Assembly (NCBI GenBank): GCA_935421135.1
Contig: OW285195.1
Location: 372,001 to 436,000, forward strand
DNA from: Bugulina stolonifera
Lineage: Eukaryota; Bryozoa; Gymnolaemata; Cheilostomatida; Bugulidae
Length of the DNA: 64,000 nucleotides
Direction of reading: 5' to 3'
Part shown: piece after piece, positions 33,877-61,894 of the stretch
How positions within the stretch are numbered: the first letter of the stretch is position 1
Layout: each line of letters starts with the position of its first letter
Translations under genes and position numbers: made by a program
The notes under the pieces: model-generated
Seen by the model: only the letters and a program-made list of their open reading frames with translations
Told to the model about the DNA's origin: nothing
Databases searched by the model: none

Positions 33877-33895
33877 CTCAACGATGTTAAGGAAA
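33877..33895 (+). repeat. Left terminal inverted repeat
   Basis: CTCAACGATGTTAAGGAAA. It matches the reverse complement of 61,876-61,894 at 17 of 19 positions. The first two bases are also what the satellite would have here. Confidence 0.7.
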
Positions 33896-34101
33896 CACCG
33901 GAAATTCTCCGCTTATGGATTTATCCCCACTACGTATAGGTCAAATTTGGGAGTGATCGCCCCTGATCTTGCTAATATGACGGGAGTTGTGGCATCCTTG
34001 ATCAAAACTGGTGCGAGTGGCGTAAAGCTGGTGTCTGGTGTCGAATTATTCAGGACCGGGTCTGTAAGTGGCCACCCTCGACATATTATATCAGTACTCA
34101 C
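33896..34101. other. GC-richer coding-like remnant next to the left terminus
   Basis: About 200 bp richer in GC than its flanks and open on both strands. On the plus strand a frame reads SNLGVIAPDLANMTGVV onward to a strong donor-like site TCT/GTAAGTGG at about 34,059. On the minus strand an acceptor-like CCACTTACAG precedes a frame ending ...ITPKFDLYVVGINP and a stop. Only one can be real, and I recognise neither. It could be a terminal exon of the element's own gene (minus reading) or an exon cut off by the terminus (plus reading). Confidence 0.3.
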
Positions 34102-35862
34102 TTGGAATTAGTTTCCTCCATATTTAGAAAGTTGTTTTAATGTTTAGTCCTGCTCTTATCTTGGATCCACCTGACTGTAGCAATACTGGTAGTATCCATT
34201 TTATACATCTACTGCGTAGTAGTTCTTTCATTTTTAAAATAATTTATATGTTTCCTATCCTAATATTTGTATTAATATAAATATTCTGCGTTAAAAATTC
34301 ATATTATTAGTTATTATATATAATAATAATATTATAATACCATTATACAGGATAACATGTATATCAATCCAATGCATTCAATTTAAATTTTCATTTACAT
34401 TCCAGCTAGCCAGCTAACCTAACAAATATTGTGTCGTATTAGCACCATTTGGAATTATGGTTTTCTCGGCGACATTCATTTCCTTCGTGTCTCTGTGTGA
34501 GATGATTAAATAATTGTTGAATTTTAAAACTTTCACAATTATTGTACATGTACGTGTACGTGTACCTAATTTTGGTTTACTGAAAATATAAATAAATAAA
34601 AATTTAATTATTCTAAAGTCTTGGTACGCCAGTATCCTAGGTGTTCCTTAATTTGTAGTTACACCTAGTCAGACAGTCAGACACCATTATCAGATCAATG
34701 CAAGCTTGTGGGATATAATTCAACTAGAAGAAAGCTACATGTAAAATCTTTCCTTGGTACAGCTTTATCACTGGTGATTAGGATTTGTTAAAATGTAAGC
34801 TAAGAAATGTTAGAGAAATATTAGGCAAAATTCTGAAACACAAATTGGTTCATGAAATGTGTATTTAGATATAGGAAAATTATATTTATCATTATATTAT
34901 TATAATAGGCCTACGAGTGAGGCTGCAGGGACATTCATCTATTTTTCTATTATATTCCTAACTACATGTAGTTAACAGAATAAAGAAAGACCGCAGATTG
35001 ATAGGAGAAGCAATCCAGCCTTTAACAGTTTAGACCTTTGAATTAATGAAACTGAAAATACACTCTGACACTCTCGGATCTATGACTCTGTAAGTAAAAT
35101 AATATATAATATATCACAGTTTGGGTGACATGTGTGCACACTATGTGACTCTAAAAAGCATAGTCATCTCGCTTACGGAGTTGTCTCTTCTTGAGGTTGA
35201 ATGTGATAACTCCAAAAAGATGTCATCTACATTGAACCAGTTTATTTATGTGTTATCATGCATGCTCAGTGACCCTGGATACCTAGATTTTCACAGGTAG
35301 TCCACCAATAAATATGTACAGTGCCATTAAATCAGGTGTTCAATCAGCAGTGCCTGCATTCTCAACTAAGTTGAATGCAGGAAGAAGACTTTTGAGATTT
35401 TAGTGAAAGGCTCAAGTAAAAAGATATAGTTGTACATACTTTCCTCGAAAGATTAAGCTGCTGCAAGTAGGAGTGAACACCTGGCTGACTCTGGCATTTT
35501 GAATATAGTGGAATGTACAAGATGATTGCATCAGTATCAATTTTCTGTTTCTATAATCAAACATTAAATAACTTTGTAGGTGACCTCAAATGAAGAACCT
35601 CTCATTGTTAACCTGCCAAGTATTGTAATGCACACATATACATGTACATGTAGGCCTACATGGGTGTAATTATTATTATATATTACAGTGGTACATTTCA
35701 GTGTATATATATGTACATGTACCAGTACATGTAGGTACAGTAGATGCAAGGAATATAGGCATATGCAAGTACGTTGTAGGTGTAAAAAGGCTTGTACATG
35801 TATTTATTAGCATAGAGTTCACATTCGGTGGTACATTATCATGTGTCACCTTTTACCTGTAG
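34102..35862. other. AT-rich stretch without a confident gene
   Basis: Contains poly-AT runs, TACATGTA/GTACATGTAC palindromes (34,545-34,566; 35,640-35,650; 35,712-35,735) and TAGGCCTA-type motifs. A short minus-strand open stretch near 34,440-34,500 has weak splice sites and was not called. Otherwise I see nothing. Confidence 0.6.
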
Positions 35863-36170
35863 TTGAGGAAACTTCAGTTTGACAAATAATAAGCAGAGCT
35901 AGTAGGAGAGGCAGCTGTGTATCAGCAGGGAAAGCGAGGATCACATATAGTAGAATCATCTGAGTGTGACTGGAGGTATTGGTGTCCTTCTAGTAAGAAG
36001 ATAGGAGTGGATGGAGATGGTTGTCGTCCTTACGGCATGAGGGTGTAATAGCTGCATTAATTGTTCAGTATGGTGATAAAATAGAAGTGACCCGTTTAAT
36101 ATGATTGCTGAAAAATATGTATATATGTATACAATACGGATATTATGGCTAGCATGTTTACCTGTTTTAG

Positions 36171-36390
36171 CTTATTTGAACTCTCCTGTAGACTGGAGAA
36201 TCTCTACCTACCAGAGGATAAACACAGCTGGTAGGAGAGGTAGCTGTGTATCAGCAGGGGAAGTGTCGATTACTAAAGAGCAAGGATCATATATAATAGA
36301 ATCATCTGAGTGTGACTGGAGGTATTGGTGTTCTTCTTGTGAGAGGATAGGAGTGGATGGAGGTGGTTGTCGTCCCTACGGCATGAGGAG
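36171..36390 (+). CDS. Six-Cys cassette exon, copy 1
   Basis: 220 nt and open throughout. The first cysteine is replaced by Tyr (TAT), leaving five. Ends GMR plus AG before GTAATAG. Confidence 0.5.
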
Positions 36391-36536
36391 GTAATAGATG
36401 CATTAATTGTTCAGTATGGTGATAAAATAGAAATGACCCGTTTAATATGCTTGCTGAAAGATAGCGTATTTGTGTTTATGTATATCATATATGTATATAA
36501 GATGTTTATTATGGCTAGCATGTTTACCTGTTTTAG

Positions 36537-36759
36537 CTTGTTTGAACTCTCCTGTAGACTGGAGAATCTCTACCTACCAGAGGATAAACACAGCTGGTAG
36601 GAGAGGTAGTTGTGTATCAGCAGGGGAAGTGTCAATCACTAAAGACCGATGATCATATATTATAGTAGAATCATCTGAGTGTGACTGAAAATATTGGTGT
36701 CCTTCTTGTGAGAGGATAGGAGTGGATGGAGATGGTTGTCGTTTCTACGGCATGAGGAG
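36537..36759 (+). pseudogene. Six-Cys cassette exon, copy 2 (broken)
   Basis: 223 nt. A stop (TGA) after ITKDR and a 3-nt insertion (TATTATAG) interrupt the frame. Splice sites are intact. Confidence 0.55.
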
Positions 36760-36917
36760 GTAATAGATGCATTAATTGTTCAGTATGGTGATGAAATAGA
36801 AGTGACCCGTTTAATATGATTGCTTAAAGATAGCGTATTTGTGTATACATGTATGTACTGTATATTATATATGTATATAATATGTATATTATGGTTAGCA
36901 CGTTTTACCTGTTCTAG

Positions 36918-37137
36918 CTTGCTTGAGCTCTCCTGTAGACTGGAGAATCCCTACCTACCAGAAGATAAACACAGCTGGTAGGAGAGGTAGCTGTGTATCA
37001 GCAGGGGAAGTGTCGATTACTAAAGAGCGAGGATCATATATAGTAGAATCATCTGAGTGTGACTGGAGGTATTGGTGTCCTTCTTGTGAGAGGATAGGAG
37101 TGGATGGAGGTGGTTGTCGTTCCTACGGCAATAGGAG
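36918..37137 (+). CDS. Six-Cys cassette exon, copy 3
   Basis: 220 nt, open, all six cysteines present, acceptor TTACCTGTTCTAG and donor AGGAG/GTAATAG. A good reference copy for the module. Confidence 0.55.
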
Positions 37138-37286
37138 GTAATAGCTGCAATAATTGTTCAGTATGGTGATAAAATAGAAATGACCCGTTTGATATGATTG
37201 CTGAAAGATAGCCTATATGTGTACATGTACATTATATTATATCTTGTTATGTATATAATATGGCTAGCATGTTTTACATGTTCTAG

Positions 37287-37505
37287 CTTGCTTGAGCTCT
37301 CCTGTAGACTGGAGAATCCCTACCTACCAGAGGATAAACACAGCTGGTAGGAGAGGTAGCTGTGTATCAGCAGGGGAAGTGTCGATTACTAAAGAGCAAG
37401 GATCATAATAGTAGCATCATCTGAGTGTGACTGAAAATATTGGTGTCCTTCTTGTGAGAGGATAGGAGTGGATGGAGGTGGTTGTCGTCCCTACGGCATG
37501 AGGAG
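37287..37505 (+). pseudogene. Six-Cys cassette exon, copy 4 (broken)
   Basis: 219 nt. A one-base loss in GGATCATAATAGTAGC shifts the frame and exposes a stop. Confidence 0.55.
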
Positions 37506-37656
37506 GTAATAGATGCATTAATTGTTCAGTATGGTGATAAAATAGAAGTGACCCGTTTAATATGATTGCTGAAAGATAGCGTATTTGTGTATATGTACTG
37601 TATATTATATATGTATATAATATGGATATTATGGCTAGCACGTTTACCTGTTTTAG

Positions 37657-37883
37657 CTTATTTGAACTCTCTTGTAGACTGGAGAATCTCTACCTACCAG
37701 AGGATAAACATAGGTAGCTGGTAGGAGAGGTAGTTGTGTATCAGCAGGGGAAGTGTCAATCACTAAAGACCGAGGATCATATATTATAGTAGAATCATCT
37801 GAGTGTGACTGAAAATATTGGTGTCCTTCTTGTGAGAGGATAGGAGTGGATGGAGGTGGTTGTCGTCCCTACGGCATGAGGAG
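37657..37883 (+). pseudogene. Six-Cys cassette exon, copy 5 (broken)
   Basis: 227 nt. Extra bases after GATAAACATAGG bring TAG into frame. The first Cys is also Tyr, as in copy 1. Confidence 0.55.
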
Positions 37884-38035
37884 GTAATAGATGCATTAAT
37901 TGTTCAGTATGGTGATAAAATAGAAGTGATCCGTTTAATATGATTGCTGAAAGATAGCGTATTTGTGTATATGTACTGTATATTATATATGTATATAATA
38001 TGTATATTATGGCTAGCATGTTTTACCTGTTTTAG

Positions 38036-38255
38036 ATTGTTTGAACTCTCTTGTAGACTGGACAACATCTACTTACCAGAGGATAAACACAGCTGGTAGG
38101 AGAGGTAGCTGTGTATCAGCAGGGGAAGAGTCGATCACTAAAGAGCGAGGATCATATATAGTAGAATCATCTGAGTGTGACTGGAGGTATTGGTGTCCTT
38201 CTTGTGAGAGGATAGGAGTGGATGAAGGTGGTTGTCGTTCCTACGGCAATAGGAG
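38036..38255 (+). CDS. Six-Cys cassette exon, copy 6
   Basis: 220 nt, open, six cysteines. Diverged around residues 9-12 (DWTTSTYQ rather than DWRIPTYQ). Confidence 0.55.
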
Positions 38256-38407
38256 GTAATAGATGCTTTAATTGTTCAGTATGGTGATAAAATAGAAGTG
38301 ACCCGTTTAATATGATTGCTGAAAGATAGCGTATTTGTGTATATGTACTGTATATTATATATGTATATAATATGTATATTATGGCTAGCATGTTTTACCT
38401 GTTTTAG

Positions 38408-38627
38408 ATTGTTTGAACTCTCCTGTAGACTGCAGAATCCCTACCTACCAGAGGATAAACACAACTGGTAGGAGAGGTAGCTGTGTATCAGCAGGGGAAA
38501 TGTCGATTACTAAAGAGCAAGGATCATATATAGTAGAATCATCTCAGTGTGACTGGGGGTATTGGTGTCCTTCTTGTGAGAGGATAGGAGTGGATGGAGG
38601 TGGTTGTCGTCCCTACGGCATTAAGAG
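38408..38627 (+). CDS. Six-Cys cassette exon, copy 7
   Basis: 220 nt and open. Six standard cysteines plus a seventh where Trp is usual (VDC for VDW). Shared with copy 9, so these two are recent duplicates. Confidence 0.55.
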
Positions 38628-38785
38628 GTAATAGATGCATTAATTGTTCAGTATGGTGATAAAATAGAAATGACCCGTTTATTATGATTGCTGAAAAATA
38701 GCATATATGTGTACATGTACATTATATTATATATTGTTATGTATATAATATGTATATTATGCCTAACATGTTTTACCTGTTCTAG

Positions 38786-39005
38786 TTTGCTTGAGCTCTC
38801 CTGTGGACTGGAGAATCCCTACTTACCAGAGGGTAAACACAGCTGGTAGGAGAGGTAGCTGTGTGTCAGCAGGGGAAGTGCCAATCATTAAATAGCGAGG
38901 ATCACATATAGTAGAATCATCTGAGTGTGACTGGAAGTATTGGTGTTCTTCTTGTGGGAGGATAGGAGTGGATGGAGGTGGTTGTCGTCCCTACGGCAAT
39001 AGGAG
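38786..39005 (+). pseudogene. Six-Cys cassette exon, copy 8 (stop)
   Basis: 220 nt with correct splice sites, but an in-frame TAG (ATCATTAAATAG) lies in the middle. Copy 13 carries a similar stop at the same place. Confidence 0.55.
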
Positions 39006-39157
39006 GTAATAGATGCTTTAATTGTTCAGTATGGTGATAAAATAGAAGTGACCCGTTTAATATGATTGCTGAAAGATAGCGTATTTGTGTATATGTACTG
39101 TATATTATATATGTATATAATATGTATATTATGGCTAGCATGTTTTACCTGTTTTAG

Positions 39158-39377
39158 ATTGTTTGAACTCTCCTGTAGACTGCAGAATCCCTACCTACCA
39201 GAGGATAAACACAACTGGTAGGAGAGGTAGCTGTGTATCAGCAGGGGAAATGTCGATTACTAAAGAGCAAGGATCATATATAGTAGAATCATCTCAGTGT
39301 GACTGGGGGTATTGGTGTCCTTCTTGTGAGAGGATAGGAGTGGATGAAGGTGGTTGTCGTTCCTACAGCAATAGGAG
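39158..39377 (+). CDS. Six-Cys cassette exon, copy 9
   Basis: 220 nt and open. Near-identical to copy 7, including the extra Cys, with a diverged C-terminal stretch (DEGGCRSY). Confidence 0.55.
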
Positions 39378-39528
39378 GTAATAGATGCATTAATTGTTCA
39401 GTATGGTGATAAAATAGAAGTGACACGTTTAATATGATTGCTGAAAGATAGCGTATTTGTGTATATGTACTGTATATTATATATGTATATAATATGGATA
39501 TTATGGCTAGCATGTTTACCGGTTTTAG

Positions 39529-39748
39529 CTTGCTTGAACCCTTCTGTAGACTGGAGAATCTCTACCTACCAGAGGACAAACACAACTGGTAGGAGAGGTA
39601 GTTGTGTATCAGCAGGGGAAGTGTCAATCGCTAAAGACCGAGGATCATATATAGTAGAATTATCTGAGTGTGACTGGAACTATTGGTGTCCTTCTTGTGA
39701 GAGGATAGGAGTGGATGGAGGTGGTTGTCGTTCCTACGGCATGAGGAG
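39529..39748 (+). CDS. Six-Cys cassette exon, copy 10
   Basis: 220 nt, open, six cysteines. Last copy of the first block; array similarity stops shortly after its donor, near 39,765. Confidence 0.55.
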
Positions 39749-39935
39749 GTAATAGCTGCATGACTAGTCTTGCATGTAATACACCAACCTATTTATATGT
39801 TTGCTTACAACTACGCTGTATTTAGCTATATCAGTTACCATAATTTTAATTCTGTGCCATTTAATGTCTCGGTTCCTCACTTTGAATGATCGAGACTTGA
39901 GATGATCTACTGTCTGGGAGAGAAACACCTTTTAG

Positions 39936-40071
39936 TGGAAATGCTCTTTGAAGAATGCAGGAGAGTGGAGAACTTTGTTGTTTGAGTGTGGTGGCACTGG
40001 TAAGAACAGAGCAGCAAAATGCAAATTCTCAGTTGTAAATGAGGTTGTAAATAATTTACCATGTGAAAATG
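39936..40071 (+). CDS. TSR-like (thrombospondin type 1) exon
   Basis: Acceptor AACACCTTTTAG, 136 nt open, donor AATG/GTAAGATA. The 45-residue frame starts WKCSLKNAGEW and contains CGGTGKNRAAKC followed by LPCEN, matching the CGG-x-R-x-C core and final Cys of thrombospondin type 1 repeats, which are extracellular adhesion modules. A TAG at the acceptor fixes the 5' limit. The exon leaves one base over, and the cassette exons need exactly one, so TSR to copies 11-14 is in phase, as is TSR to the candidate exon at 40,263. The Trp pattern is atypical, so the family call is moderate. Confidence 0.45.
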
Positions 40072-40856: not shown

Positions 40857-40872
40857 GTTTCACCTGTTCTAG

Positions 40873-41092
40873 CTTGCCTGAACTCTCCGGTAGACTGGAG
40901 AATCCCTACCTACCAGAGGATAAACACAGCTGGTAGGAGAGGTAGCTGTGTATCAGCAGGGGAAGAGTCGATTACTAAAGAGCGAGGATCATATATAGTA
41001 GAATCATCTGAGTGTGACTGTAGGTATTGGTGTCCTTCTTGTGAGAGGATAGGAGTGGATGGAGGTGGTTGTCGTTCCTACGGCATGAGGAG
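40873..41092 (+). CDS. Six-Cys cassette exon, copy 11
   Basis: 220 nt, open, six cysteines. First copy of the second block, downstream of the TSR-like exon and in phase with it. Confidence 0.55.
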
Positions 41093-41241
41093 GTAATAGC
41101 CGCAATAATTGTTCAGCATGGTGATAAAATAGAAATGACCCGTTTATGATGATTGCTGAAAGATAGCCTATATGTGTACATGTACATTATATTATATCTT
41201 GTTATGTATATAATATGGCTAGCATGTTTTACATGTTCTAG

Positions 41242-41461
41242 CTTGCTTGAGCTCTCCTGTAGACTGGAGAATCCCTACCTACCAGAGGATAGACACAGCT
41301 GTTAGGAGAGGTAGCTGTGTATCAGCAGGGGAAATGTCGATTTCTAAAGAGCAAGGATCATATATAGTAGAATCATCTAAGTGTGACTGGAAATATTGGT
41401 GTCCTTCTAGTGAGAGGATAGGAGTGGATGGAGGTGGTTGTCGTCCTTACGACATTGAAAG
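41242..41461 (+). CDS. Six-Cys cassette exon, copy 12
   Basis: 220 nt and open, but Cys5 is Ser (CPSS for CPSC) and the donor context is AAAG/GTAATAG. Confidence 0.5.
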
Positions 41462-41607
41462 GTAATAGCTGCAATAATTGTTCAGCATGGTGATGAAATA
41501 GAAATGACCTGTTTAATATGATTGCTGAAAGATAGCGTATTTGTGTTTATGTATATTATATATGTATATAATATGTTTATTATGGCTAGCATGTTTACCT
41601 GTTTTAG

Positions 41608-41827
41608 CTTGCTTGAACCCTTCTGTAGACTGGAGAATCCCTACCTACCAGAGGGTAAACACAGCTGGTACGAGAGGTGGCTGTGTATCAGCAGGGGAAG
41701 TGCCAATCAATAAATAGCGAGGATCACATATAGTAGAATCATCTGAGTGTGACTGGAGGTATTGGTGTCCTTCTTGTGAGAGGATAGGAGTGGATGGAGG
41801 TGGTTGTCGTCCCTACGGCATGAGGAG
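41608..41827 (+). pseudogene. Six-Cys cassette exon, copy 13 (stop)
   Basis: 220 nt with good splice sites. An in-frame TAG (AATAAATAG) interrupts it, at the same place as in copy 8. Confidence 0.55.
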
Positions 41828-41974
41828 GTAATAGCTGCAATAATTGTTCAGTATGGTGATAAAATAGAACTGACCCGTTTATTTTGATTGCTGAAAGATA
41901 GCAAATATGTGTACATGTACATTATATTATATATTGTTATGTATATTATGGCTAGCATGTTTTACCTGTTCTAG

Positions 41975-42194
41975 CTTGCTTGAGCTCTCCTGTAGACTGG
42001 AAAATCCCTACCTACCAGAAGATAAACACAGCTGGTAGGAGAGGTAGCTGTGTATCAGCAGGGGAAGTGTCGATTACTAAAGAGCAAGGATCATATATAG
42101 TAGAATCATCTGAGTGTGACTGGAGGTATTGGTGTCCTTCTTGTGAGAGGATAGGAGTGGATGGAGGTGGTTGTCGTTCCTACGGCATGAGGAG
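41975..42194 (+). CDS. Six-Cys cassette exon, copy 14
   Basis: 220 nt, open, six cysteines. Its downstream intron sequence ends at about 42,328, inside the minus-strand zinc-motif gene. No plus-strand exon in the needed phase is convincing downstream. Confidence 0.55.
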
Positions 42195-42217
42195 GTAATA
42201 GATGCATTAATTGTTCA

Positions 42218-44444
42218 CTATGGTGATAAAATAGAAGTGACCCGTTTAATATGATTGTTGAAAGATAGCCTATATGTGTACATGTACATTATATTATATA
42301 TTGTTATGTATATAATATGTATATTATTGTTGCTGGAATACACTGCAGCCAGATCTCGTTCAATATTGTCTTTCTCTTCAAGATCTCTTGTCTGCTTAAT
42401 AATTTGTCCCGTAATTGATTTTGGAACGTCACTTACAGTTAATTTCCTTTTTTTTGTTGCAGGTGTACTTTCATCAGCAGATAAAGACAGCCGTGAGATT
42501 GCTGTTTTAGTTGGCTGTTTATAGTTGACAGATACAGACTGAGGTGGTGTCGCATCAACATGTGGTAGAAGTAATTCAACCCTTCGTCTCGATCCAGAAA
42601 ACTCATTTTCAAGTCCAACTGTTTCGCTAGAAGACTGATCAGATGAAGTTGTTCCAGGTGAGGGAATTGTTGCAGAAGTTGATGTCAACAAACTGTCTGC
42701 AGTAGCACTCAACTTGGAGTCACTGTGAGTTTGTACATCTAACAATGAGAATACATTTATTATAGTTTATACAGAAGTAGCACATACATGTAGGCAAAGA
42801 CATTTGTACAATTTTGAGTCAATTGTAAATAGAGAGTAAGTGGTCCTATGTGGTTTCGGACCCATCAGATGTTTGCTATAAAACTCTAGTTAATGTTGGT
42901 TTTGAATCACAGTTATATCTTTTAAACAGCAGCATCCAGATTTAGTTGAATTGTTAAAACTGTAACAGCACTCCAAACGAGGATGGAAGCAGATAATAAA
43001 TAATTCATGGTTTAAAAAATATTGGGTCTGTTAAAACATTCTTAGTAAATAGTTGATGCTTGCAGAAAATCTAGTTCATACCTACTTACCTACAATCTAC
43101 CTACATGTACCTACCTACCAATGTACCTGCCTACCTACACTAATACATTGTAGCTACATGTATAATATAACTATTTCCAAAAGCTGCACTGTTGTACATA
43201 TCTTTGAATGGTTGTGACCCTTGGCTACAGAATATAAAGCAACTAAAAATAATTTTGAGATCACTACAGCACAGCTAACAATGTGTAAAATTCCACAAGT
43301 AAAGCATTTTATCTTTCTGCAATTAAAGAAGATCAGCTCGCTGATTCAATAGTTCGAGAATTGGAAGTTTTAAGTGGCAAATGGTTGAATTGACTACCTG
43401 GTAACTTCTCATATTTTGCAAGAGTGCAAAACACTTTATTTTTCTTCTTCAGTTGAAAGATGTCATTTTTCCCACATCCTCGACAGTTGATGAGTGTGTG
43501 TTCACTCCTCTCTTGTGTTGATAGTGAGGCCCAGCATCCCAAGGAAAAGGTCTTGATGTAGAGGTCCTGTCCCTTTCGACCATCATCATATTGGCTGCTG
43601 AAAAACCAGGTACATGATCTATATGTATACGTATTTCGTAATAGTGAAAATGGGTGCACTGGGCACTTTGGCTCTCAGCAGCATGCTGCTCTATCTGCCA
43701 GTTGTGATTGGTGTGCAACTCTGTTGCTAACCACAACATGTTGGATGAACATTTGATAGAATAGAACCGTTACTTATTAACAATCAGCACCAATATCAGT
43801 CTAATATGATTGGAATCGGAAATCTTGAGCAGAACTGCAATTTATATAATGTAATAGACTGTCAGGGACAATTACACTACAAAGCACCCACATTACTAAT
43901 ACACCGTCACTTAGGAGTTGTGCATAGCCACTATCAATATGTACATATTTTAATAGTGTCCATCATCCAGCTCTAGCAATTGTTGGAATAATACTCCATG
44001 TGATAATCATTACAATATTAGTCAATTACAGTTTAAATAGGCCTAAATTTGTAATTACACTTACATTTAACTGGGAATTTGTTCCAGGTTTTATTGCCTG
44101 TTGGCAACTAAGTACAAAAAATAAAAATAAAATGTGATATTTTGATTTAAGTGATATGGTAAACCGTAATTTTTGCTAATTTGAACATTTGAAAGTTTAA
44201 TCAAGCATTTATAGCAATAATATTGTAGGGTGTTTGATCAGCAGCTCCCCCTAGTTTAATGCACTTACTGTTTCATTAATTGATCTGCCAGTCTGTCTTT
44301 ATGCTTGACCCACACTCCATGTTTAATTTTCATGTTTGGGTGATCTTCCATGAGGTGTTTGTTGTATTGCAGATAGCCCTCATCATCTAAGCTCCACAAA
44401 TAACAGTCAGCGTAACCGCAGAAGACTGGTGCTGATATAGGCAT
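42218..44444 (-). CDS. Three-exon gene with C2H2-like and CxxC zinc motifs
   Basis: Exons at 44,444-44,269 (ends /GTAAGTGC), 43,597-43,398 (acceptor CTGGTTTTTCAG, donor CCAG/GTAGTC) and 42,738-42,218 (acceptor TTCTCATTGTTAG). All junctions agree in phase, which strongly supports the model. Residues C9, C14, H30 and H35 form C-x4-C-x15-H-x4-H. C97-x2-C100 with C116 resembles a zinc ribbon. Residues 127-220 are Ser/Thr-rich, and KKRK at 221-224 looks like a nuclear localisation signal, so a nuclear nucleic-acid-binding role is inferred. I do not recognise the family. From about 42,328 the frame runs into cassette-array intron sequence and stops at 42,218 (about 298 residues), so the natural C-terminus was probably replaced or lies in a further exon. 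The first in-frame ATG is 44,444; an acceptor-like CTACCAG 45 bp upstream would make the exon internal. Confidence 0.65.
43079..43140. repeat. Imperfect CTAC-rich microsatellite
   Basis: Runs of CTAC/CTACC separated by TACATGTA-like pieces, within the second intron of the zinc-motif gene. Confidence 0.7.
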
Positions 44445-44696
44445 TATAGTTCTATGAAACAAAGTTATGCTCTGGTAGGTATAATTCAATGTTGAACTGT
44501 TGCTTACTGAAATTTTTGACAGTTAGGTGTTTCTAGTGTCGAAAGTCTTGCTGGACTGAAGTCTGTCCAAGATAGAAGGATTATATATAGGCCTATAAAG
44601 TAAATTTCTATATTATTTGTAACTAACTAATTACTTTACCCTCTTTTCATTTTTCTAATGGATTATTCAAGTAAATTTGTTCTGATTTATTCACAG

Positions 44697-45691: not shown

Positions 45692-46600
45692 TGGTAAAGT
45701 ATAGCATAGAACAGTGTGAATAATAAGTATTTTGTTATTGGTATTTACCCATGAGCACACTGGTTGTTCAGTCAGTGTATGGAGCATCTAGCCCTTTGTG
45801 AGGTGAAAGTACACTATTAGCTATGTCCACTTTCACCAATAATACTATGATACATTAGCAGAAGATGGCGGGATATATTGTTGTCAAATCAACTATCTCT
45901 TTCTCCCTGTCACTGCAATGTGAAATAGTTATACCATGTTATAGCCTGCTTTAGAGCTGCAGTGTGAATTCTTGTATCTGTTGAAATGCTTTAGTATTCT
46001 GCTAGATCTACAGTACATTACATCGTGATAGGAAGTTGGTCTAGTTGTAACGTTTGTTGAAATGAGACTAATTTAAAAATATGAACATCCTTCTATCTAG
46101 ACAAAATGTTTACTAACATCATGGGCTTGTAATATTCTTGCAATTCATGTAATGATTGAGCTTGGGGTAAAGTTTGAGGGCTGCTCACAGTGAGACAGTG
46201 TGTTATGGTGAAGTACATGTATGGCATAGAACAGTTTGAATAATAGGTCCTTTGTTATTGGTATTTATTCAATAATACATGTACAATGGTCAGTCAGTCA
46301 GTGTATGGAGCATCTAGCCCTTTGTGAGGTACAAGTACTAATAGCTATGTCCACTTTCACCAATAATACTATGATACATTAGCAGCAGATGGTGAGATAT
46401 ATTGTTGTCAAATCAACCCTGTCTTTCTCGCTGTCACTGCAATGAGAAATAGTTATACCATGTTATAGCCTGCTTTGGAGCTGAAGTCTGAATTCTTGTA
46501 TTTGTTGAAATGCCTTAGTATCCTGCTAGTTCTACTTTATATTGTGATAGGAAGTTGGTCTACTTGTAACATTTGCTAAAATAAGCCCAATGCTTTCATA
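45692..46600 (+). repeat. Foldback structure, forward units F1-F2
   Basis: Two copies of a roughly 515-525-bp unit, recognised by GGTCAGTCAGTCAGTG, GGAGCATCTAGCCCTTTG and TAATGATTGAGCTTGGGG. F1 (45,692-46,205) is the most diverged. F2 breaks off near 46,600. Confidence 0.8.
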
Positions 46601-46619
46601 GTGCTGCATAGTACTCAAA

Positions 46620-48545: not shown

Positions 48546-48627
48546 TAGTAAAAATTTTTTTTCTGGACAGAACTGGTTGGCAAAATATAGTTTTACATCA
48601 GACTTGAATACTTCTTATGGCAAATTA

Positions 48628-50290
48628 TCAGCAGATGATGAGATATATTGTTGTCAAATCAACTATCTCTTTCTCCCTGTCACTGCAAAGAGAAATAGTT
48701 ATACCGTGTTATAGCCTGCTTTAGAGCTGCAGTGTGAATTCTTGTATTTGTTGAAATGCATTAGTATTCTGCTAGATCTACAGTACATTGCATCGTGATA
48801 GGAAGTGGTCTAGTTGTAACGTTGGTTGAAATGAGACTAATTTAAAAATATGAGCATCCTTCTGCCTAGACAAAATGTTTACTAACATCATGGACTTGTA
48901 ATATTCTTACAATTCATGTAATGATTGAGCTTGGGGTAAAGTTTGAGGGCTGCTCAGCAGTGAGACAGTGTATTATGGTGAAGTATGTGTATAGCATAGA
49001 ACAGCTGGAATAATAGGTCCTTTGTTATTGGTATTTATTCAATAATACAAGTACAATGGTCAGTCAGTTGGTGTATGGAGCATCTAGCCCTTTGTGAGAT
49101 ACAAGTACTAATAGCTATGTCCACTTTCACCAATAATACTATGATACATTAGCAGCAGATGGTGAGATATATTGTTGTCAAATCAACCCTGTCTTTCTCG
49201 CTGTCACTGCAATGAGAAATAGTTATACCATGTTATAGCCTGCTTTAGAGCTGCAGTGTGAATTCTTGTATTTGTTGAAATGCGTTAGTGTTCTGCTAGA
49301 TCTACAGTACATTGCATCATGATAGGAAGTTGGTCTAGTTGTAACGTTGGTTGAAATGAGACTAATTTAAAAATATGAGCATTCTTCTGTCTAGACAAAA
49401 GGTTTACTAACATCATGGACTTGTAATATTCTTACAATTCATGTAATGATTGAGCTTGGGGTAAAGTTTGAGGGCTGCTCAGCAGTGAGACAGTGTATTA
49501 TGGTGAAGTATGTGTATAGCATAGAACAGTTTGAATAATAGGTCCTTTGTTATTGGTATTTATTCAATAATACATGTACAATGGTCAGTCAGTTGGTGTA
49601 TGGAGCATCTAGCCCTCTGTGAGGTACAAGTACTATAATTAGCTAGTCACTCTCACCAATAATACTATGATACATTAGCAGCAGATGGTGAGATATATAT
49701 TGTTGTCAAATCAACCCTGTCTTTCTCGCTGTCACTGCAATGAGAAATAGTTATACCATGTTATAGCCTGCTTTAGAGCTGCAGTGTGAATTCTTGTATT
49801 TGTTGAAATGCGTTAGTGTTCTGCTAGATCTACAGTACATTGCATCATGATAGGAAGTTGGTCTAGTTGTAACTTTTGTTGAAATGAGACTAATTTAAAA
49901 AGATGAATATCCTTCTGTCTAGACAAATTGTTTACTAAACAACATGGGCTTGTAATATTCTTGCAATTCAAGTAATGATTGAGCTTGGGGTAAAGTTTGA
50001 GGGCCGCTCACAGTGAGACAGTGTGTTATGGTGAAGTATGTGTATAGCATAGAACAGCTGGAATAATAGGTTCTTTGTTATTGGTATTTATTCAATAATA
50101 CATGTACAATGGTCAGTCAGTCAGTGTATGGAGCATCTAGCCCTTTGTGAGGTACAAATACTATAATTAGCTAGTCACTTTCACCAATAATACCATGAGC
50201 ACCCAGAACTAGTGCACAGTGTTGGCATTGTGTAACATTTGTAATTGGGACAGGTGGAGTATCTGGGTGAAACTAAGTATCCAACCTTTC
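48628..50290 (+). repeat. Foldback structure, forward units F3-F6
   Basis: Forward units with boundaries near 48,974, 49,499 and 50,025 (period 525-526). With 46,620-48,545 they make an imperfect palindrome of about 3.7 kb, centred on a short unrelated spacer at about 48,546-48,627. Known: foldback elements (Drosophila FB, sea urchin TU) have long inverted termini made of tandem repeats. Assignment to that class is an inference; no transposase frame is present. Confidence 0.8.
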
Positions 50291-51618: not shown

Positions 51619-52603
51619 TTATGCATTGTAAATGGAATGATCTCTATGGTCACCTAAATATAATTGTTGGAAAGCTTGCATACCAAATCTCACAGCACGC
51701 TGCAGGCTAAAGAAATAGCGCCGCTGACCCCAATTTGATATAGGGACACCATCAGTATCCATATATCTCACTAGACGTCTGTCAAGAAAGTAAAACTTCT
51801 TAGAGTCAGAAGCATGTACTGTATCTGCGAGCGCCAGATTGAATTGGCGAGCTAGCTCATGAAAGCCTTGCGGCACTCGGCGGGATCCCTCTCTCCTCAT
51901 GACCGAGGTAAACACTATAACTGTTGCTGTGCCCTCAAGTCTTTGCAACAACCTCTTTGCAGCTTCGATAGGGTTGACTTTTCCTATGTCGTTGCCTCCA
52001 CAGCACACAACTATGATGTCCATGTAGTTTTTTGGGATCTGAAACATTGGAACAAACATTCATCTCCAGTGTGTTGAATTTAAAGAAAAACATTATGGAT
52101 TGCTAACATGGAGTGGAGTGGATTTTCGAAACACATGCATCAAAACACAACATTGTTTGTAAGCGGAACTCACAGGACAAGTTGTTACGCGTGCACCAGG
52201 TCGACTTATTAGATTCACATGTGGAGTGTTCTCCAATTGGAAAGCGTATCCATTTTTCTAAAATTAATAACAAAAACAATACATCCTTCAACATCGACAT
52301 TTACAGTACAAGCATGTTCATACAAATTGTGATAGTAAGCTATAATATGCTTTGATCATGGTTTCAGATGGCAATACGACCTCTTGGCTCCCAATAGGTG
52401 CCAAAGTGAATTTACATTGTAAAGGCTACCAATACATGGTTAAAGATTTGCTCCACATAGTTCAATAATATCAAAAATAAATAGTGGCTACATGCAAAAG
52501 AATTACACTGAATGCCATGAACATGACTGTTTATAGTGTTATTTACCTTGATATAGGAAGCAAGTCTTCTTACATAACTGTCTCCAACTGTTGCAATTTT
52601 CAT
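51619..52603 (-). CDS. SGNH/GDSL hydrolase-like protein, three exons, catalytic His missing
   Basis: Exons 52,603-52,547 (donor AAG/GTAAAT), 52,257-52,174 (acceptor ATTAATTTTAG, donor CCT/GTGAGT) and 52,038-51,619 (acceptor TGTTTCAG); all junctions are phase 0, giving 186 residues. ATG 52,603 is the first Met after an in-frame TGA 36 bp upstream. Family motifs in order: GDSYVRRL at 7-14 (nucleophile Ser9, block I), RPGARV at 38-43 (block II Gly), GGND at 61-64 (block III), DGVPISNWGQRRYF at 143-156 (block V). In active relatives block V reads DGxH; here position 146 is Pro, so the Ser-His-Asp triad looks incomplete and hydrolase activity is doubtful. Known: small SGNH proteins of this type occur free and inside mobile elements (Ngaro/VIPER, CR1/L2). 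No signal peptide is seen, so a cytosolic location is likely. Confidence 0.8.
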
Positions 52604-53671
52604 TATTTTAAGCTGTGTAGTTTGTACTATAGATCTTCAAGAATTCAAATTGGTGACACTTGCTAAGCTAAATACCAAACAGTATTAATTAACTTGTATT
52701 AAGCATTAATACGAATATATTTCTTCGCTTGTCCAACAGAGTTGTACCCTTATCGGTAACACAATAGACTAATAGTTTGCACCTCAAACAAAGTAATTAA
52801 ATTAATTTGAAGCTGCATCCTATACGTTGACCAAAACTAATAAAAAAACAACTGGAATTTAACAAAAAGAATTTGCAGCATCGATTTATCACATGTTCAT
52901 GGTGTCATAATGCAATGTTCTATGCTCCAACCTACAATCCGAGAAAAAATTTTCAACTTTACACACTGCAAGTTATACTTGAGACATTTACTACTACATT
53001 TAGAAAATAAAAACATAATATGTACCTTTCTATTTGGCTAACTTTCTTCTGGTTTGACTCTACACGATAAACACACCCAGACTAAAATTTGTCAGAACAG
53101 GCTGTACCTTTATATAGGCAGGTAAATATAATTCAATGAGATGTAATGGAATGTTTAATCCTAGTTTACAGAGATATTGTAGCTGAAATCTTTGGTTAGC
53201 TATGATACCTGTTGTACTTTGCCATCTAAGCAAACACAGAAGGTAATAATTATAGGCTCCCATCTCACCATATCCAACGAAAGTAGTGGAGTCAATCAAG
53301 GACATTTGAAGAGTTAGAAGATAATCTAGACACCAAACCTTCTGAACACTTTGTTTGAAGTATTACAAAGCATAGATTATGAAGATTTGTACTTAGACTT
53401 GGTGCTTAGCGATTATTGAAGTCCCATAAAATGTTCAGCTTTTCCACAACACTGAAATAGTTCAACAATTTGAGGAGTTTTAGCAAGGTAGGATTGGTGT
53501 GTTACTATTCCAAGTTAGCCTCACAAAAGTTAGACTTCCAACTACCTACTAACTAGATAATTCACTCCAAATAGTTAATGAAGTTTTTTTACTCTCAAAA
53601 CCAGAGGATGCTCTGCAGCAAATTAAATATCAACATACATTAGAATGACTCCAACATTCAGATGTGTTGCC
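52604..53671. other. Upstream region of the SGNH gene, no confident gene
   Basis: AT-rich. The minus-strand open frame 53,060-53,305 has no splice context or recognisable motif and is not called. Confidence 0.5.
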
Positions 53672-53875: not shown

Positions 53876-53899
53876 ATCGAACTATAATGATATCCAGCT

Positions 53900-55425: not shown

Positions 55426-55465
55426 TCACAAGATGACTTCATTCCACGCAAACAGAGAGAAAATA
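55426..55465 (+). CDS. Candidate 40-nt exon
   Basis: Acceptor ACTGTTGCCATAG, phase 0 frame SQDDFIPRKQREN, donor AATA/GTAAGATG. In phase with the preceding candidate exon. Short, so it could be chance. Confidence 0.3.
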
Positions 55466-56618: not shown

Positions 56619-56690
56619 AAAGATGTAGCAGATCCCACTGGAGCCAAGCTGGTTGGCATCAATCCAGCAAAGTTTCTACTCTCAGTCTAA
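56619..56690 (+). CDS. Candidate terminal exon, ...GAKLVGINPAKFLLSV
   Basis: Acceptor CTTTTCATCTACATGTAG, 23 codons starting KDVADPTGAKLVGINPAKFL, then TAA. It starts in phase 0 and so matches the exit phase of 55,248-55,357. Locally GC-richer and coding-like. Not recognised. Confidence 0.45.
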   Translation, partial: KDVADPTGAKLVGINPAKFLLSV

Positions 56691-58086
56691 AGTTTGCTTA
56701 CCAGTCCACATACACTGGTCACTGCAAACAGACAAGAAAACAGTATTACATTGTACTAAACACATGTCCAACCACAACCAGGTGCTGTTGCAGAGCAACA
56801 GAAACTGCAGATATTTGTATTGGCAAAACTGAAAACAAAACTGCCTGCATTTTAAGGGCTGATCTGAATAGAATTGACAAAAGAGGAGAATATCTTGTTG
56901 GATGTTCAACTATGTCTGAGATAACCTAATCAAAAAACAACCACACCAAGTCATTGCCTGAAGAAATACATGTAGATCTCTATGCGCTACCATTTAGCAA
57001 ACATGATTTTAGGCCATGTTTTCTTATTGTCATACTTGTTCAATTGAATTTACTAAGCAAATTAAAAAGTATTTTGCGATTTCTATGGCAACGACTTGGC
57101 AAGACACTGCTGCTACACGTTGACTTACCCTGCAATGAGGTCACGATTGCTATTTTATGTGGGGCGTGTATGTGTGGGTGTGCGTGGTTATTAAATAAAT
57201 CTGATGTAAATAACCACCATTGATCACAATGGAAGTAGTGATGTGCTCCCTCTCTCCGTTGCTTTCTCTCGATAGACTAAATAGATAATTAGAAAATATT
57301 AACAAAGTAAAAACTGGATTTTATTATAGAATGATGTTTTATCTCGGTTCTACATGAAATATGATATTATCATAGCAGTCTGCCAGTTCGGAAATGACTG
57401 TCTTCACTTTGGTCTGATCAAACACCTCCAACCGTCTCTATTTCTCGCCTTCACTTGCCAACTATATGCTTAGAATTATAATAATTATGCTCTCTCACAC
57501 CCCATACACATAAAAATGTGGAGTGCACAATTTGTAGAGCAAATGAAAATATACATACAATGTACATGTTATAGCTTTCGATCTTGAACATAAAATATCA
57601 AGTGACTTACCTGTTCAATATTGTTCTGCCTACAGAAACAAATGCAATAGAGTGCAGCTAGTGATTCCAACTCAGGTTGATGATGCACTATTCATGAGAC
57701 TTGATCACCCCAATCTATCTCTCAGAAATGATATTATGTTGATGTTGCTTTATGCATCTGTACCTTCAACTGCCAATGCATCATACTATAAATGTACATG
57801 TACATGCAGACACTAAAAAATTAAAAATATGATTTAGTTGCTTGCACAAGGTATAAGATCTACATGTACATATTAAATCTGCAAAGTTTCAACAGTTAGA
57901 ATACCTCATTGATGTACTGCACTTCAACATTAGGTTTAATATAAAGAATGGAAAAAAGACTACAGCATGTGTACCAACATTCTGTCAGATACCATAGAAT
58001 TTGTGCATCTGGGCTAGCTAATGGCTATTGTAAAGAAAGCTTTTTAGCAGGATGTTTGGCAGCCAATATTTAGTTACATTGTTTAG
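56691..58086. other. Stretch without confident genes
   Basis: AT-rich, with a small duplicated element at 57,603-57,776 (listed separately). Plus-strand open frames near 56,954-57,223 and 57,965-58,075 lack convincing splice sites. Confidence 0.45.
57603..57776 (-). repeat. ~175-bp dispersed repeat, copy 1, with a 19-nt microexon-like core
   Basis: Similar to 59,018-59,187 in the same orientation. On the minus strand it contains TTTGTTTCTGTAG, 19 nt (57,629-57,611), then GTAAGTCAC, a textbook donor. Confidence 0.5.
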
Positions 58087-58159
58087 TCAGTATCTTACCT
58101 GCTTATGGAGCTAAGGAGGCATGCAGCATTGTTGAAGAGAGATGACTGGAACAGACCAG
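58087..58159 (+). CDS. Candidate internal exon, ...MELRRHAALLKRDDWNRP
   Basis: Acceptor TTACATTGTTTAG, 73 nt open in phase 0, donor CCAG/GTAATG. Encodes SVSYLLMELRRHAALLKRDD then WNRP, helical and charged. An internal ATG (58,105) would also serve as a start. Partner exons unknown. Confidence 0.35.
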
Positions 58160-59505
58160 GTAATGCTACTAATAGTTACATGTAATACGCTCTGTTGAAG
58201 TGCCTAAAAGTATAAGAAATTTATTTAAAAAATGATAATAATGATATTCACCATGTTCTATCGAGAAAAAACAATATGGTGACATGTTTACATCGCATAC
58301 ATGTACATGACTAGCTCACTCAATTGCAATGTACACAGTGTTTTCCCACCTTAATGCTATATAATGTTTACATCAAAGCCATCTAGTTAAAAGAAGTAAT
58401 CAGAGATAAAATATTATAACTGCTAAAGTCAGTTAGTATTTCAAAGAATACAACATTAACTTATAAGATGAGTCCACCAATCTCAAAGGAGTACAACAGA
58501 ACAACTCCTATTATACTGCAATGTGTGTCTCTCATAAACAGCATTGGCCACACTTGACAGAGTTACGTTCTCTAAGTGTTCGTTCGCTTGGTGCTTGATG
58601 ACATTGACACGGTAAGAATTGGGTTTAATCATAGAATTGCAGGAAATATAATACATATCCTTACAAATATTCTCCCACACCCCACACATGTACATGCATG
58701 TACATGTAGATGATAAAACTTGAAATTTGTGCAACAATTAGTTCAAGTTATACAATTGAGGAAATGCCAATGAATTTTATCCACAGATGAAATTTCGAGA
58801 ATATCATGACATATAACTAATATGTACAGCAACTGCTTCAATAGCATGGGTAAATGTTTAGAAAAATGACTCTTCATCTACATGTATCTACACGTACAAT
58901 GTACATGAATATGCATACTTAATGTGTGTTTGTTCACAGATAAACTATTGGGGGTGTAGTTCTATAAAAATGAGAATAACAAGCAACTCAAATTGAAGCT
59001 CCACTCTTTCAAAAATTGACTTACCTGTTTAGGATTATTCTGTCTACAGTTCCAGATACAATAGCTTAATATAACTAGTAAGTCCAACCCAGAACCATTC
59101 TGCACTATTTATGAGATTAGATCACTCCAATCTCTATCTCAGAAATAATATGTTGGTGTTAGCGCATGCTTCTGTACCTTCAACTGCTCCCGTTTACAGC
59201 TGCTGTTGGAACAGCCACTATCAATGATAAAAAATCATGCATACATGCAGTCTATTTACGAAGGGTAGGATGTACTTATACATGCAAATGTTGAATCTAT
59301 GCAGTTTCAACAAATCATATTCAGATTGAAAATAATGCTTTATACGATACAATAGTATGTAGTGTCAAAATACTTGGAGCCTACAGTGTAACCGAGTGAT
59401 CTACATGTAATTCATCCTTACAGAAATTTGCTTTTGTTTAATGTTTATCTTCTACTTCAGAAGCAATTCCGTTGAATGCTTTAACCAACTTTTTTTCCCG
59501 TTTAC
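58160..59505. other. Stretch without confident genes
   Basis: AT-rich, with GTACATG-type palindromes (58,300-58,310; 58,688-58,710; 58,880-58,910). The minus-strand open frame at 58,483-58,737 includes such a motif and looks spurious. Copy 2 of the small dispersed repeat lies inside. Confidence 0.45.
59018..59187 (-). repeat. ~170-bp dispersed repeat, copy 2, with a 19-nt microexon-like core
   Basis: Diverged copy of 57,603-57,776. The minus strand again shows CTGTAG, 19 nt (59,044-59,026), then GTAAGTCAA, so both splice-like borders and the 19-nt spacing are kept while the core differs. Confidence 0.5.
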
Positions 59506-59683
59506 CTTATGTTGTAGTAGTGATGTTGTAGTAGGGATGTTGTAGTAGTGATGTTGTAGTAGTGATGTTGTAGTAGTGATGTTGTAGTAGTGATGAAAGT
59601 ATCTCTTTTGTAGATCAGGTGCAAGCCAGTCATCGAAAACAAGTTTCCAACAGTGCCAGCCTCACACAGTGCCTGAATGTCGC
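59506..59683 (-). CDS. Candidate exon containing a 14-bp minisatellite
   Basis: Acceptor CACTACTGTTAACAG, 178 nt with a single open frame, donor CATAAG/GTAAACG. The N-terminal half reads DIQALCEAGTVGNLFSMTGL. The C-terminal half is a repeat-encoded stretch with a 14-residue period (ITTTTSLLQHHYYN), because a 14-bp unit cycles through all three frames. Alternative: a plus-strand terminal exon from TATCTCTTTTGTAG (about 59,613) encoding IRCKPVIENKFPTVPASHSA. Strand is therefore uncertain. Confidence 0.35.
59511..59594. repeat. 14-bp minisatellite, six copies
   Basis: GTTGTAGTAGTGAT repeated at 59,511, 59,525, 59,539, 59,553, 59,567 and 59,581. The second unit has one substitution (GTAGGGAT). 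Confidence 0.95.
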
Positions 59684-59699
59684 CTGTTAACAGTAGTGA

Positions 59700-60937
59700 A
59701 AAGTAAATCTACATAAGAAAACAGGTAAAACAATGAGATATATAAAGTGACATAATGGTGATAATCATTTTAATAAGACACACTAACTAAATAGGCAGGT
59801 AACGCACAGGATATTACAGTGATATTACAGATAAAATTAATCTAGACTATTGGTTGTGATTATTTTTAGTCACAAGAGTCTGTAAAATATTGAAAACTGT
59901 ACATACTAAGTGCAATCGCTAGCAAAACAGAAATATATTTCATATTCTAGGTTTTCACCTAACTATTTTTAATTTAAAACCGTCTATTATATGTCTATCA
60001 TATTTTTCGATTAATCTTAGGTGTTACTAGCTATGCCCACTCAGTCCCTGATAGGTTTGACCTGTGGTAATTGGTACTATATTAATGCCAACATCTCGTT
60101 TGCAATGAAAGTAATCAGGACTATTGATTACTTGACATCACTGTTATTGTGCGACTGAGTAACGTCAATTGGCATTTAGAACAGGGGTGGACAACTCCTA
60201 CTAGTAAAATCAGATGCATTTGAAACATTTGTGGCTACCCTTTCGCCATCTAGCATCTCTTTAGATATTAGAATGTATGCTTATAGAGATAACAAGCAAT
60301 GCCAACATAGTGAGTTTGTACAAAATCTCAAATGCTTAAAAATAATTTTAAACTCCATGTATCTCAAGACAACTACTGCATATTCCCTGTTCTACAGGAT
60401 GCCTGTATAACATGTTTCTATTCAAATTCAAAAACACTCACTGTTTATGTTGTAGTGAAGAAAGCAAACTTCCTTGCCTCACCAAGACATTTCCCAATAG
60501 ACAACTTCCAATGGACACCTCCATAATGTAGCCTATTTCTTTCCAATAAACTGAGCAAACCCTTCAATAGATAAAGAACCACTCTTCAATGAATTTAATC
60601 CTAGACAGAGGCAGCAAACATGTAGAATTGAATGACTATTACTAGCCATCATAAATTGGGATTACGCAAAATAGGTCAAAACTAATTTAATGTAGGCTGC
60701 CAAGAGCAGCTCCTAGTAGTAGATAGTATGCTCATCTTAAAAGAGCGGGAAACTACTTAGCTCAATACAAACCACGGAAAATTTAATCATTATGATCATT
60801 TACTTCACTTTGACAAATTTTGGAGATTTTGCAGTAACTGAAATCAACCTACTATTTCCCATAGATATGTTCTGTTGTAGTAAGAAGAATTAGTTTCCTC
60901 ACATGTCTCGAAGATGCATAGAGGAGCTAGAGGCAGA
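59700..60937. other. Stretch without confident genes
   Basis: AT-rich. The plus-strand open frame at 60,332-60,526 has no recognisable motif or clear splice borders. No repeats stand out. Confidence 0.4.
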
Positions 60938-61051
60938 CTAGACTGCAATCAACTTTAACAGAACAACTTTCCATGTGGCACAAACTTTCTCCAATAGCCT
61001 CCAACTGACTCTGATGTTGCTTGTAGAGTGTTCAAGTTGATGCACACTATA
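60938..61051 (-). CDS. Candidate terminal exon after a strong acceptor
   Basis: GTTACTCTATTTTTCAG is a strong acceptor. Two frames are open after it. One gives 37 codons (YSVHQLEHSTSNIRVSW...) ending TAG at 60,938. The other includes SVGGYWRKFVPHGKLFC and ends TAA. I cannot choose between them. The plus strand also has an open frame (61,028-61,255) with two hydrophobic stretches, but it contains a TAGGCCTA motif typical of non-coding DNA here. Confidence 0.35.
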   Translation of the reverse strand, partial: YSVHQLEHSTSNIRVSWRLLEKVCATWKVVLLKLIAV

Positions 61052-61607
61052 CTGAAAAATAGAGTAACCGACAGCAATATTACAAGCTACAAGCGGATGA
61101 CTAGTGTAGACAGCTTCTACATTGTAGTTTTTCTTGTCATCGGCAGACTGATATCAGTCTGTAGGCCAAAGAAACTATCAAAATTTAAAATAAATTTAAT
61201 TACGAGTAGGCCTACAACCATTGTATGCCTACTTCTACTTGTAGTTACTAGTTAAATTTACTGTAACAATGTGCCTAAAAAAGAAAACTCTATCAACTGG
61301 CAAATATGACTAAGATACAACGTTTCTATATAACAATAGCCTAAGTGGAACACATTCATCTACATAGCATTTACATTAACAGCTACAAAAACAACAATGA
61401 AAATTAATTCAAAATGAAAGCAAGGTTGAAATTTTTAGTAGCGTTTTCTCAAGGCAAATACCAGCTAAAGTTATTTGAACACCTAAATTAAAAGCTATCT
61501 AATAACGGTGTTTACAGTACTGGATGACTAACAACACATCAGCTAATAGAGAAGCTAAACAGTATCAGAAAGTATTAATATAGCACTCTCATTGGTAAAG
61601 CTGCTAC

Positions 61608-61724
61608 CTGCGGAGGTAACAATGGCAGCTACATTGACAAGCCGGAAACACAGCACGATGAGGGGCCTAAATGTAGGCCGTGACCCAAGCCAGCCAAATA
61701 TGTGCTGGCCGAGCCACTGGCTGT
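61608..61724 (-). CDS. Alternative 117-nt exon reading
   Basis: Acceptor GTTACCTTCCCCAG, 117 nt open with symmetric phase 1-1, donor CCGCAG/GTAGCAGC. Encodes SQWLGQHIFGWLGSRPTF onward, Trp- and hydrophobic-rich. It overlaps the VWC-like reading of 61,629-61,825 in another frame, so at most one is right. The splice signals are better here; the motif is better there. Confidence 0.35.
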
Positions 61725-61825
61725 CTGGGGAAGGTAACACAACTTCAGAATAGGTAAATATTTAGACTGGTGTCTGCACTGATCACAACAGTTGCGTCCC
61801 GCATTTACGCATGGTGAATCACAGG
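61629..61825 (-). CDS. VWC-like Cys-rich terminal exon reading
   Basis: Acceptor GCACTTTATTTTAG followed by 64 codons to TAG. The first 16 residues, CDSPCVNAGRNCCDQC, fit the closing C-x3-C...CC-x2-C pattern of von Willebrand factor C modules (extracellular). The remainder is unremarkable. It lies within 70 bp of the right terminus of the insertion. The family call rests on this short motif only. Confidence 0.35.
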
Positions 61826-61875
61826 CTAAAATAAAGTGCAGGTGAGGAAAACTCCCAATTTTTTTTCAAAATAAT

Positions 61876-61894
61876 TTTCCTTGACATCGATGAG
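61876..61894 (-). repeat. Right terminal inverted repeat
   Basis: Read inward from the satellite junction this is CTCATCGATGTCAAGGAAA, differing from the left end at positions 5 and 12. The similarity does not clearly extend further inward. Confidence 0.7.

Follow-up and report, generated by a model that had tools for sequence, protein, structure and literature searches.

What interrupts the satellite array of the bryozoan Bugulina stolonifera in the window analyzed here, a stretch of 64,000 nt from contig OW285195.1 of the assembly GCA_935421135.1 (positions 372,001–436,000 of the forward strand), and how could it have arrived there? The array ends at position 33,876 of the window and restarts at 61,895, with a non-satellite block in between, and the evidence supports the view that this block represents a single copy from a dispersed family of giant DNA transposons with terminal inverted repeats (TIRs). 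Its boundaries, its empty site and the paired ends found genome-wide delimit a complete element of 28,018 bp (33,877–61,894, plus strand), which belongs to subfamily A of the family and has its left-type end at the left. As a transposase has not been recognised, the label “transposon” rests on the ends, the insertion footprints and the dispersed copies.

Ends and empty site of the block

The block is bounded by 19-bp repeats, CTCAACGATGTTAAGGAAA at the left (33,877–33,895, plus strand) and, reading inward, CTCATCGATGTCAAGGAAA at the right (61,876–61,894, minus strand), both supported by the window sequence and by TIR matches in the genome. Compared in inverted orientation, they are identical at 17 of 19 positions, as reported in the initial annotation of this DNA. 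The same annotation held that the flanks of the block rejoin in register and that the satellite target preserves the empty site. For the reconstruction of this site, 400 bp of the left flank and 400 bp of the right flank were joined, minus 2 bp, and aligned to the array. The rejoined flanks produce an ungapped alignment of 798 bp with 99.5% identity both to 22,976–23,773 and to 24,704–25,501, and a third array match of 775 bp with 99.6% identity at 63,225–63,999, which bears out both statements.

If the flanks are joined without removal of the 2 bp, the alignment needs two gap positions; hence the target-site duplication (TSD) in the window is TT, 2 bp long, with the left copy at 33,875–33,876 and the right copy at 61,895–61,896, as seen in the empty-site alignment. 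The 4-bp overlap TTCT described earlier thus stands in part: TT is the TSD, while CT is not duplicated, as the TT of the array is followed by CT and the element also starts with CT.

The surrounding satellite (1–33,876 and 61,895–64,000) is based on a 9-bp unit with the consensus TCTATGCAT, and has nested periods of 9, 36, 54, and 225 bp as well as long higher-order repeats, with the strongest self-match at an offset of 9,821 bp. Both strands of the satellite are open across hundreds of codons, probably due to composition alone.

Dispersed copies, duplications and subfamilies

The genome (235 Mb in 27 contigs) was searched for the TIR. The pattern CTCAWCGATGTYAAGGAAA with at most two mismatches yields 46 forward and 43 reverse matches, compared to 9 and 5 for the reversed-pattern control. 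Exact TIR matches number 76, with approximately 0.007 expected, and 66 of them form 33 adjacent convergent pairs (less than 100 kb), the other ten being unpaired. In all 33 pairs, a left-type end (CTCAAC) is combined with a right-type one (CTCATC). Shuffling of strands gives on average 10.1 convergent pairs, and none of 2000 shuffles reached 33. These counts substantiate the early opinion that the terminal match is not a chance one, and inverted pairs, whose existence elsewhere in the assembly had been anticipated, are indeed present.

The flanks of all 33 pairs were read for TSDs, with mismatched flank pairs serving as a control. A 2-bp TSD is observed at 29 of the 33 pairs, compared to 163 of 1056 mismatched flank pairs, and a 3-bp one at none of the 33; hence, of the flanking duplications of 2–4 bp envisaged in the initial annotation, it is the 2-bp variant that recurs, with one of the 29 also matching at 4 bp (TATA). 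The duplicated dinucleotides are TA (eight pairs), CA and AA (five each), TT (four), TG (three), AC (two), AG and CG (one each). As there are eight different dinucleotides, the target sequence is not fixed. Class II TIR transposons are characterized by fixed inverted-repeat ends in many dispersed copies and by TSDs of constant length, and we observe both, the former in 33 left-plus-right pairs and the latter as 2 bp at 29 pairs and 3 bp at none. Taken with the flanks in register, the inverted pairs and the TSDs substantiate the original suggestion of a giant DNA-transposon-like element. None of the left flanks of the 33 pairs occurs twice, which weighs against duplication of larger blocks, and many pairs are situated in non-satellite DNA.

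The family comprises at least two subfamilies distinguished by the right end, A (ATC..GTCAAGG) and B (ATC..GTTAAGG). Subfamily A has 18 pairs, 15 of which span 24.0–36.6 kb, the remainder being 4.6, 60, and 80 kb; subfamily B has 15 pairs, 14 of them spanning 16.8–25.4 kb and one, 46.7 kb. The 4.6-kb pair (L027) was considered as an internal-deletion derivative and rejected, as 200 N separate its two matched halves and its length is therefore not evidence for a deletion.

As judged from their sequences, the copies are young, some of them very recent. Three other A copies show 99.94–99.97% identity to the window copy over 3,438 bp, and six further ones, 98.0–98.3% over 2.2–3.4 kb. On contig C11, two A pairs separated by 2.9 Mb have an identical length of 31,118 bp, with different flanks and the TSDs AC and TA. 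Of ten B copies, read half by half, nine are colinear with the remaining one (L013/L014), with segments of at least 1 kb at approximately 93–99.9%.

The subfamilies also resemble each other inside the ends. At the left, the first 255 bp (33,877–34,131 in the window, plus strand) are 78% identical between A and B, and approximately 470 bp are at 68%. At the right, the terminal 4.1 kb (57,810–61,894, minus strand) has patchy similarity of approximately 60–71% to the right end of B, and the blocks shared there by A and B have no consistent open frame. These regions may be cis-acting, presumably so for the left subterminal region and, at least at the tip, for the right one. Among the top 8–10-mers, examined for subterminal repeats, the recurrent words are all A/T-rich.

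Gene remnants and the search for a transposase

Most of the block length is free of recognisable genes. Part of it is occupied by repeats: a tandem array of a 372-bp unit (36,115–39,761, 9.8 copies), a second array of the same unit (40,857–42,319, 4.0 copies), and an array in which units of approximately 525 bp, at least seven in number, occur in both orientations (45,846–50,197). An Rfam scan of 33,800–62,000 gave no match.

Two gene remnants are observed. One of them resembles SGNH hydrolases. It includes an SGNH/GDSL-hydrolase-like open segment of 146 aa (51,622–52,059, minus strand) and a probable upstream exon with the GDSY motif (52,415–52,636, minus strand). Conserved blocks of SGNH/GDSL hydrolases are GDS(Y), GxND, and DxxH; the gene shows GDSY, GGND, and DxxH motifs, with the histidine of the last replaced by proline in the window copy. 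The resulting DGVP is present in the window and three near-identical copies, DGVH in six other A copies. The segment matches Lipase_GDSL_2 with E=0.0027, and its relative at L041 (see below) with E=0.00014, both matches being below the curated Pfam cut-off, and the predicted structure is too weak to corroborate the assignment (pLDDT 53.8, 0 fold matches at E 0.001). There are 26 genomic matches to the segment, 18 of which, the window included, are full-length, at least 96%, and stop-free.

The second remnant is a Cys/His-rich gene (“gene 2”), with an open segment at 44,268–44,522 (minus strand) that has 22 genomic matches, 21 of them stop-free at 93% or higher; for another segment, 15 of 20 matches are stop-free. 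Two more segments probably belong to this gene, one with the CRGCGKND motif (43,402–43,593, minus strand), similar in L043 and L044, which contain diverged relatives of gene 2, and the other Ser/Thr-rich with KKRK (42,341–42,766, minus strand). As substitutions in the genes compared to their relatives are near neutral, with the exception of one segment (8 synonymous vs. 3.3 expected), both the SGNH-like and the Cys/His-rich gene look like accessory cargo, coding in the past and decaying in the window copy.

For the search for a transposase, pieces of open reading frames (ORFs) were scanned with Pfam, 110 from the window copy (A) and 84 from one B copy. In this set there is no transposase-like match, no match to polymerase, integrase or capsid, and no match to the CMC DDE transposase with its C(2)C and H(3-4)H motifs. 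A genome search for PF02992 (Transposase_21) also gave no match, but its controls remained unmatched as well, and hence it is uninformative; PDB sequence searches gave nothing useful. The scanned B copy has no recognisable gene, the best Pfam match among its 84 pieces having E=0.0026. Out of its 35 ORFs of at least 70 aa, 11 stay open throughout the copies compared, and each of the remaining 24 is interrupted in one or more of the other copies. The best of the 11, L014:7502-7858, was considered as a conserved exon, being open in 8 of 8 copies with 17 synonymous and 13 other codon changes, but was rejected because gaps disrupt its frame in the related end L005. The latter (C2:186881-189899) is the left end of a further family, with approximately 75–77% identity to B in subterminal parts; having at most approximately 10 kb before the next element, it could be a smaller relative, perhaps an autonomous one.

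A Harbinger-type transposase (PF13359) was also considered for the family and rejected: it has at least 157 matches in the genome (150 of 289 candidates scored), and among the matches listed none is inside the 33 pairs, as compared by eye. Two PF13359 open frames are close to diverged relatives. One of them (C9:131189-131644) follows an unpaired left end of A-like type (C9:138946-138964, minus strand), at approximately 7 kb on its inner side, but an ORF with the same score is found at five other places with no TIR hit nearby. The other (C7:2508431-2508580) is approximately 5 kb from L044.

A relative of the SGNH segment is found at L041, adjacent to an 879-aa ORF and to a boundary with the sequence CACTACAAAGGG. 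This locus is a 7.7-kb element (L041:3617-10000 and L085:1-1322; C1:25081116-25088821), which was considered as a CACTA element or a partner of the family and rejected. Because of its TAGGC[A/G]CTACAAA ends (12 of 13 positions) and the 7-bp repeat CTGGATG, it is an element of another kind, and matches of its ORF lie outside the 33 pairs: 41 are found in the genome, on C1, C2, and C4, none within the pairs when compared by eye. Perhaps the 879-aa ORF encodes the transposase of that element; it has no significant Pfam match, its AlphaFold model (pLDDT 37.6) is not usable, and no relative of the protein is present in a viral contig collection. The SGNH-like gene of the L041 element is 30–34% identical to that of the window, and hence an SGNH-like accessory gene is carried by two unrelated kinds of mobile elements. 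Its coding stretch L041:4692-4971 is a near-palindrome, since it aligns to its reverse complement with 69% matches over 297 columns.

Probable mode of transposition and relation to known systems

The ends, the TSDs, the empty site and the dispersed near-identical copies are observed directly, and we consider it probable, at roughly three chances in four, that they reflect a giant TIR transposon moved by cut-and-paste by a DDE-type enzyme acting in trans, with most of the doubt falling on the trans step. The transposase would bind the TIRs, and probably also the conserved subterminal regions, pairing the two unlike ends; the whole unit would then be excised and inserted at a non-specific, A/T-rich dinucleotide, where the two target strands are cut 2 bp apart, and gap repair would yield the 2-bp TSD. 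We infer the action in trans since a transposase is not recognised in the window copy or in the scanned B copy.

Several points weigh against this explanation. Four of the 33 pairs have no TSD, and while two of them, of 60 and 80 kb, look composite, the other two (C11:435847-464911 and C11:8790693-8810874) are of ordinary length. Among the copies and ends read, there is neither a transposase nor an autonomous element sharing these ends, so that both the enzyme and its supply in trans are presumptive. The Pfam scan covered ORF pieces from 48 aa (A) and 52 aa (B) upward, with the window copy as the only A copy scanned in full, so that a gene of short exons could be missed. A replicative mechanism instead of cut-and-paste is possible, and movement is deduced from the assembled sequence rather than from polymorphic insertions.

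Subfamily A could instead be autonomous, with a transposase of its own encoded in exons that are short or very diverged, e.g., in gene 2 or in the right-terminal 4 kb, with B as its non-autonomous partner. This agrees with two gene remnants kept mostly stop-free in about 20 copies, and with the ends and right-terminal blocks common to A and B; however, the 110 ORF pieces contain no transposase family, gene 2 is represented by short, Cys/His-rich segments, substitutions outside the one segment are near neutral, and the shared blocks have no consistent frame, and we regard autonomy of A as unlikely. Hardly credible is the placement of unique DNA in a satellite array by segmental duplication or by faulty assembly: while such arrays are hard to assemble, one pair holds 200 N and the 60-kb pair contains a 26,193-bp repeat, it would have to account for 33 pairs with identical termini, 29 of them with 2-bp TSDs, many in non-satellite DNA and with unrepeated left flanks.

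Polinton/Maverick elements and Teratorn are also tens of kilobases long, with TIRs and dispersed copies, and the similar size range would suit a virus-derived element. The target of Teratorn and piggyBac is TTAA, which is present at 0 of 33 pairs, and Teratorn-type genes were not seen in the ORF pieces scanned, so both were rejected. According to the accessible parts of the respective papers, Teratorn combines a piggyBac-like transposase with herpesvirus-like genes (PMC6431247, PMC10175614), and Polintons have 6-bp TSDs and long TIRs (PMC8969392). Polinton/Maverick was rejected as well, as the TSDs here are 2 bp and not 6, the terminal match is 19 bp, and the hallmark genes gave no Pfam match in the ORF pieces scanned; moreover, the exact TIR is absent from the viral contig collection, and a virus-derived origin is highly improbable. 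Among superfamilies with fixed targets, ISL2EU, with AT as the TSD in the available text of PMC4482050, was rejected as none of the 29 TSDs is AT, and Tc1/mariner (TA), as TA is found in just 8 of 29.

By TSD, the nearest known group is CACTA/Mirage/Chapaev, or CMC/CMCT (with CACTA/TRC, EnSpm, Mirage, Plavaka), which similarly has short non-specific TSDs and short TIRs. In the portions of the sources at hand, TSDs are 2–4 bp for CMC elements (PMC4482050) and 2–5 bp for CMCT, with mostly 5′-CA..TG-3′ termini and PlavakaB ending in CATCA..TGATG (PMC12730594), while SmTRC1, an animal CACTA relative, has CCC ends and 2-bp repeats found at 7 of 14 copies (PMC1636069). The 2-bp TSDs of the present family, with no fixed sequence, fall within this range, but its termini are 5′-CTCA..TGAG-3′, neither CA..TG nor the CCC of animal TRC, its units of 17–37 kb are mostly without recognisable genes, and the CMC transposase is not seen in the ORF pieces scanned. 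Membership in a known superfamily, most likely an animal CACTA/Mirage-type lineage with unusual ends and extreme size, is a serious possibility, if somewhat short of even, and is compatible with cut-and-paste in trans; it is unproven, and given the deviating ends and the lack of a known transposase, we do not place the family in CMC/CMCT. Only tentatively could one propose a new superfamily or deep lineage, with CTCA..TGAG ends, non-specific 2-bp TSDs, a rare transposase supplied in trans, and mostly non-coding units of 17–37 kb that would escape the size penalty of cut-and-paste.

Other systems share single features with the family. Miniature inverted-repeat transposable elements and Pack-MULEs likewise have TIRs and TSDs without a recognised transposase and are presumed to be moved in trans, but the units here span 17–37 kb, and a partner was not found. 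Enlarged En/Spm elements of Chondrus crispus, 16–20 kb, are also large TIR elements, with 4–5 ORFs as described in the accessible part of PMC6431247. SGNH/GDSL genes are reported, in the parts of the sources available, from texim with Helitrons, CR1, and Terminons (PMC4021074, PMC6431247); there an accessory gene of this type is linked to other mobility systems, whereas here it is carried by a TIR element with 2-bp TSDs. In the published literature as far as searched, with many subscription papers and Repbase outside the search, we found no such family, and the accessible text of a review on giant transposons (PMC6431247) does not mention long, mostly non-coding TIR elements like these.

The same text states that the efficiency of class II transposition drops with the distance between TIRs (PMC6431247); class II elements are therefore expected to stay small, yet here 29 units, nearly all of 17–37 kb, are flanked by exact 2-bp duplications. 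Such elements shift tens of kilobases per move, satellite arrays included, and annotation based on transposases could miss them. If confirmed by polymorphic insertions, the family would provide a natural system for studying how a transposase synapses ends so far apart, and a lead towards delivery of large DNA cargo.

Several loci have unusual arrangements of ends. The 60-kb pair (C3:342287-402500) contains three A segments, each in two copies, all exactly 26,193 bp apart, and reads as a subfamily A copy in which 26 kb have been duplicated in tandem, with no TSD at the outer flanks. At L028 (C3:143900-150400), an A right end faces, at 5.7 kb and with no TSD, the right-type end CTCATCAATGTCAAGGAAAC, which belongs to a third family. 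A related right end is also present near C8:4022491-4023207.

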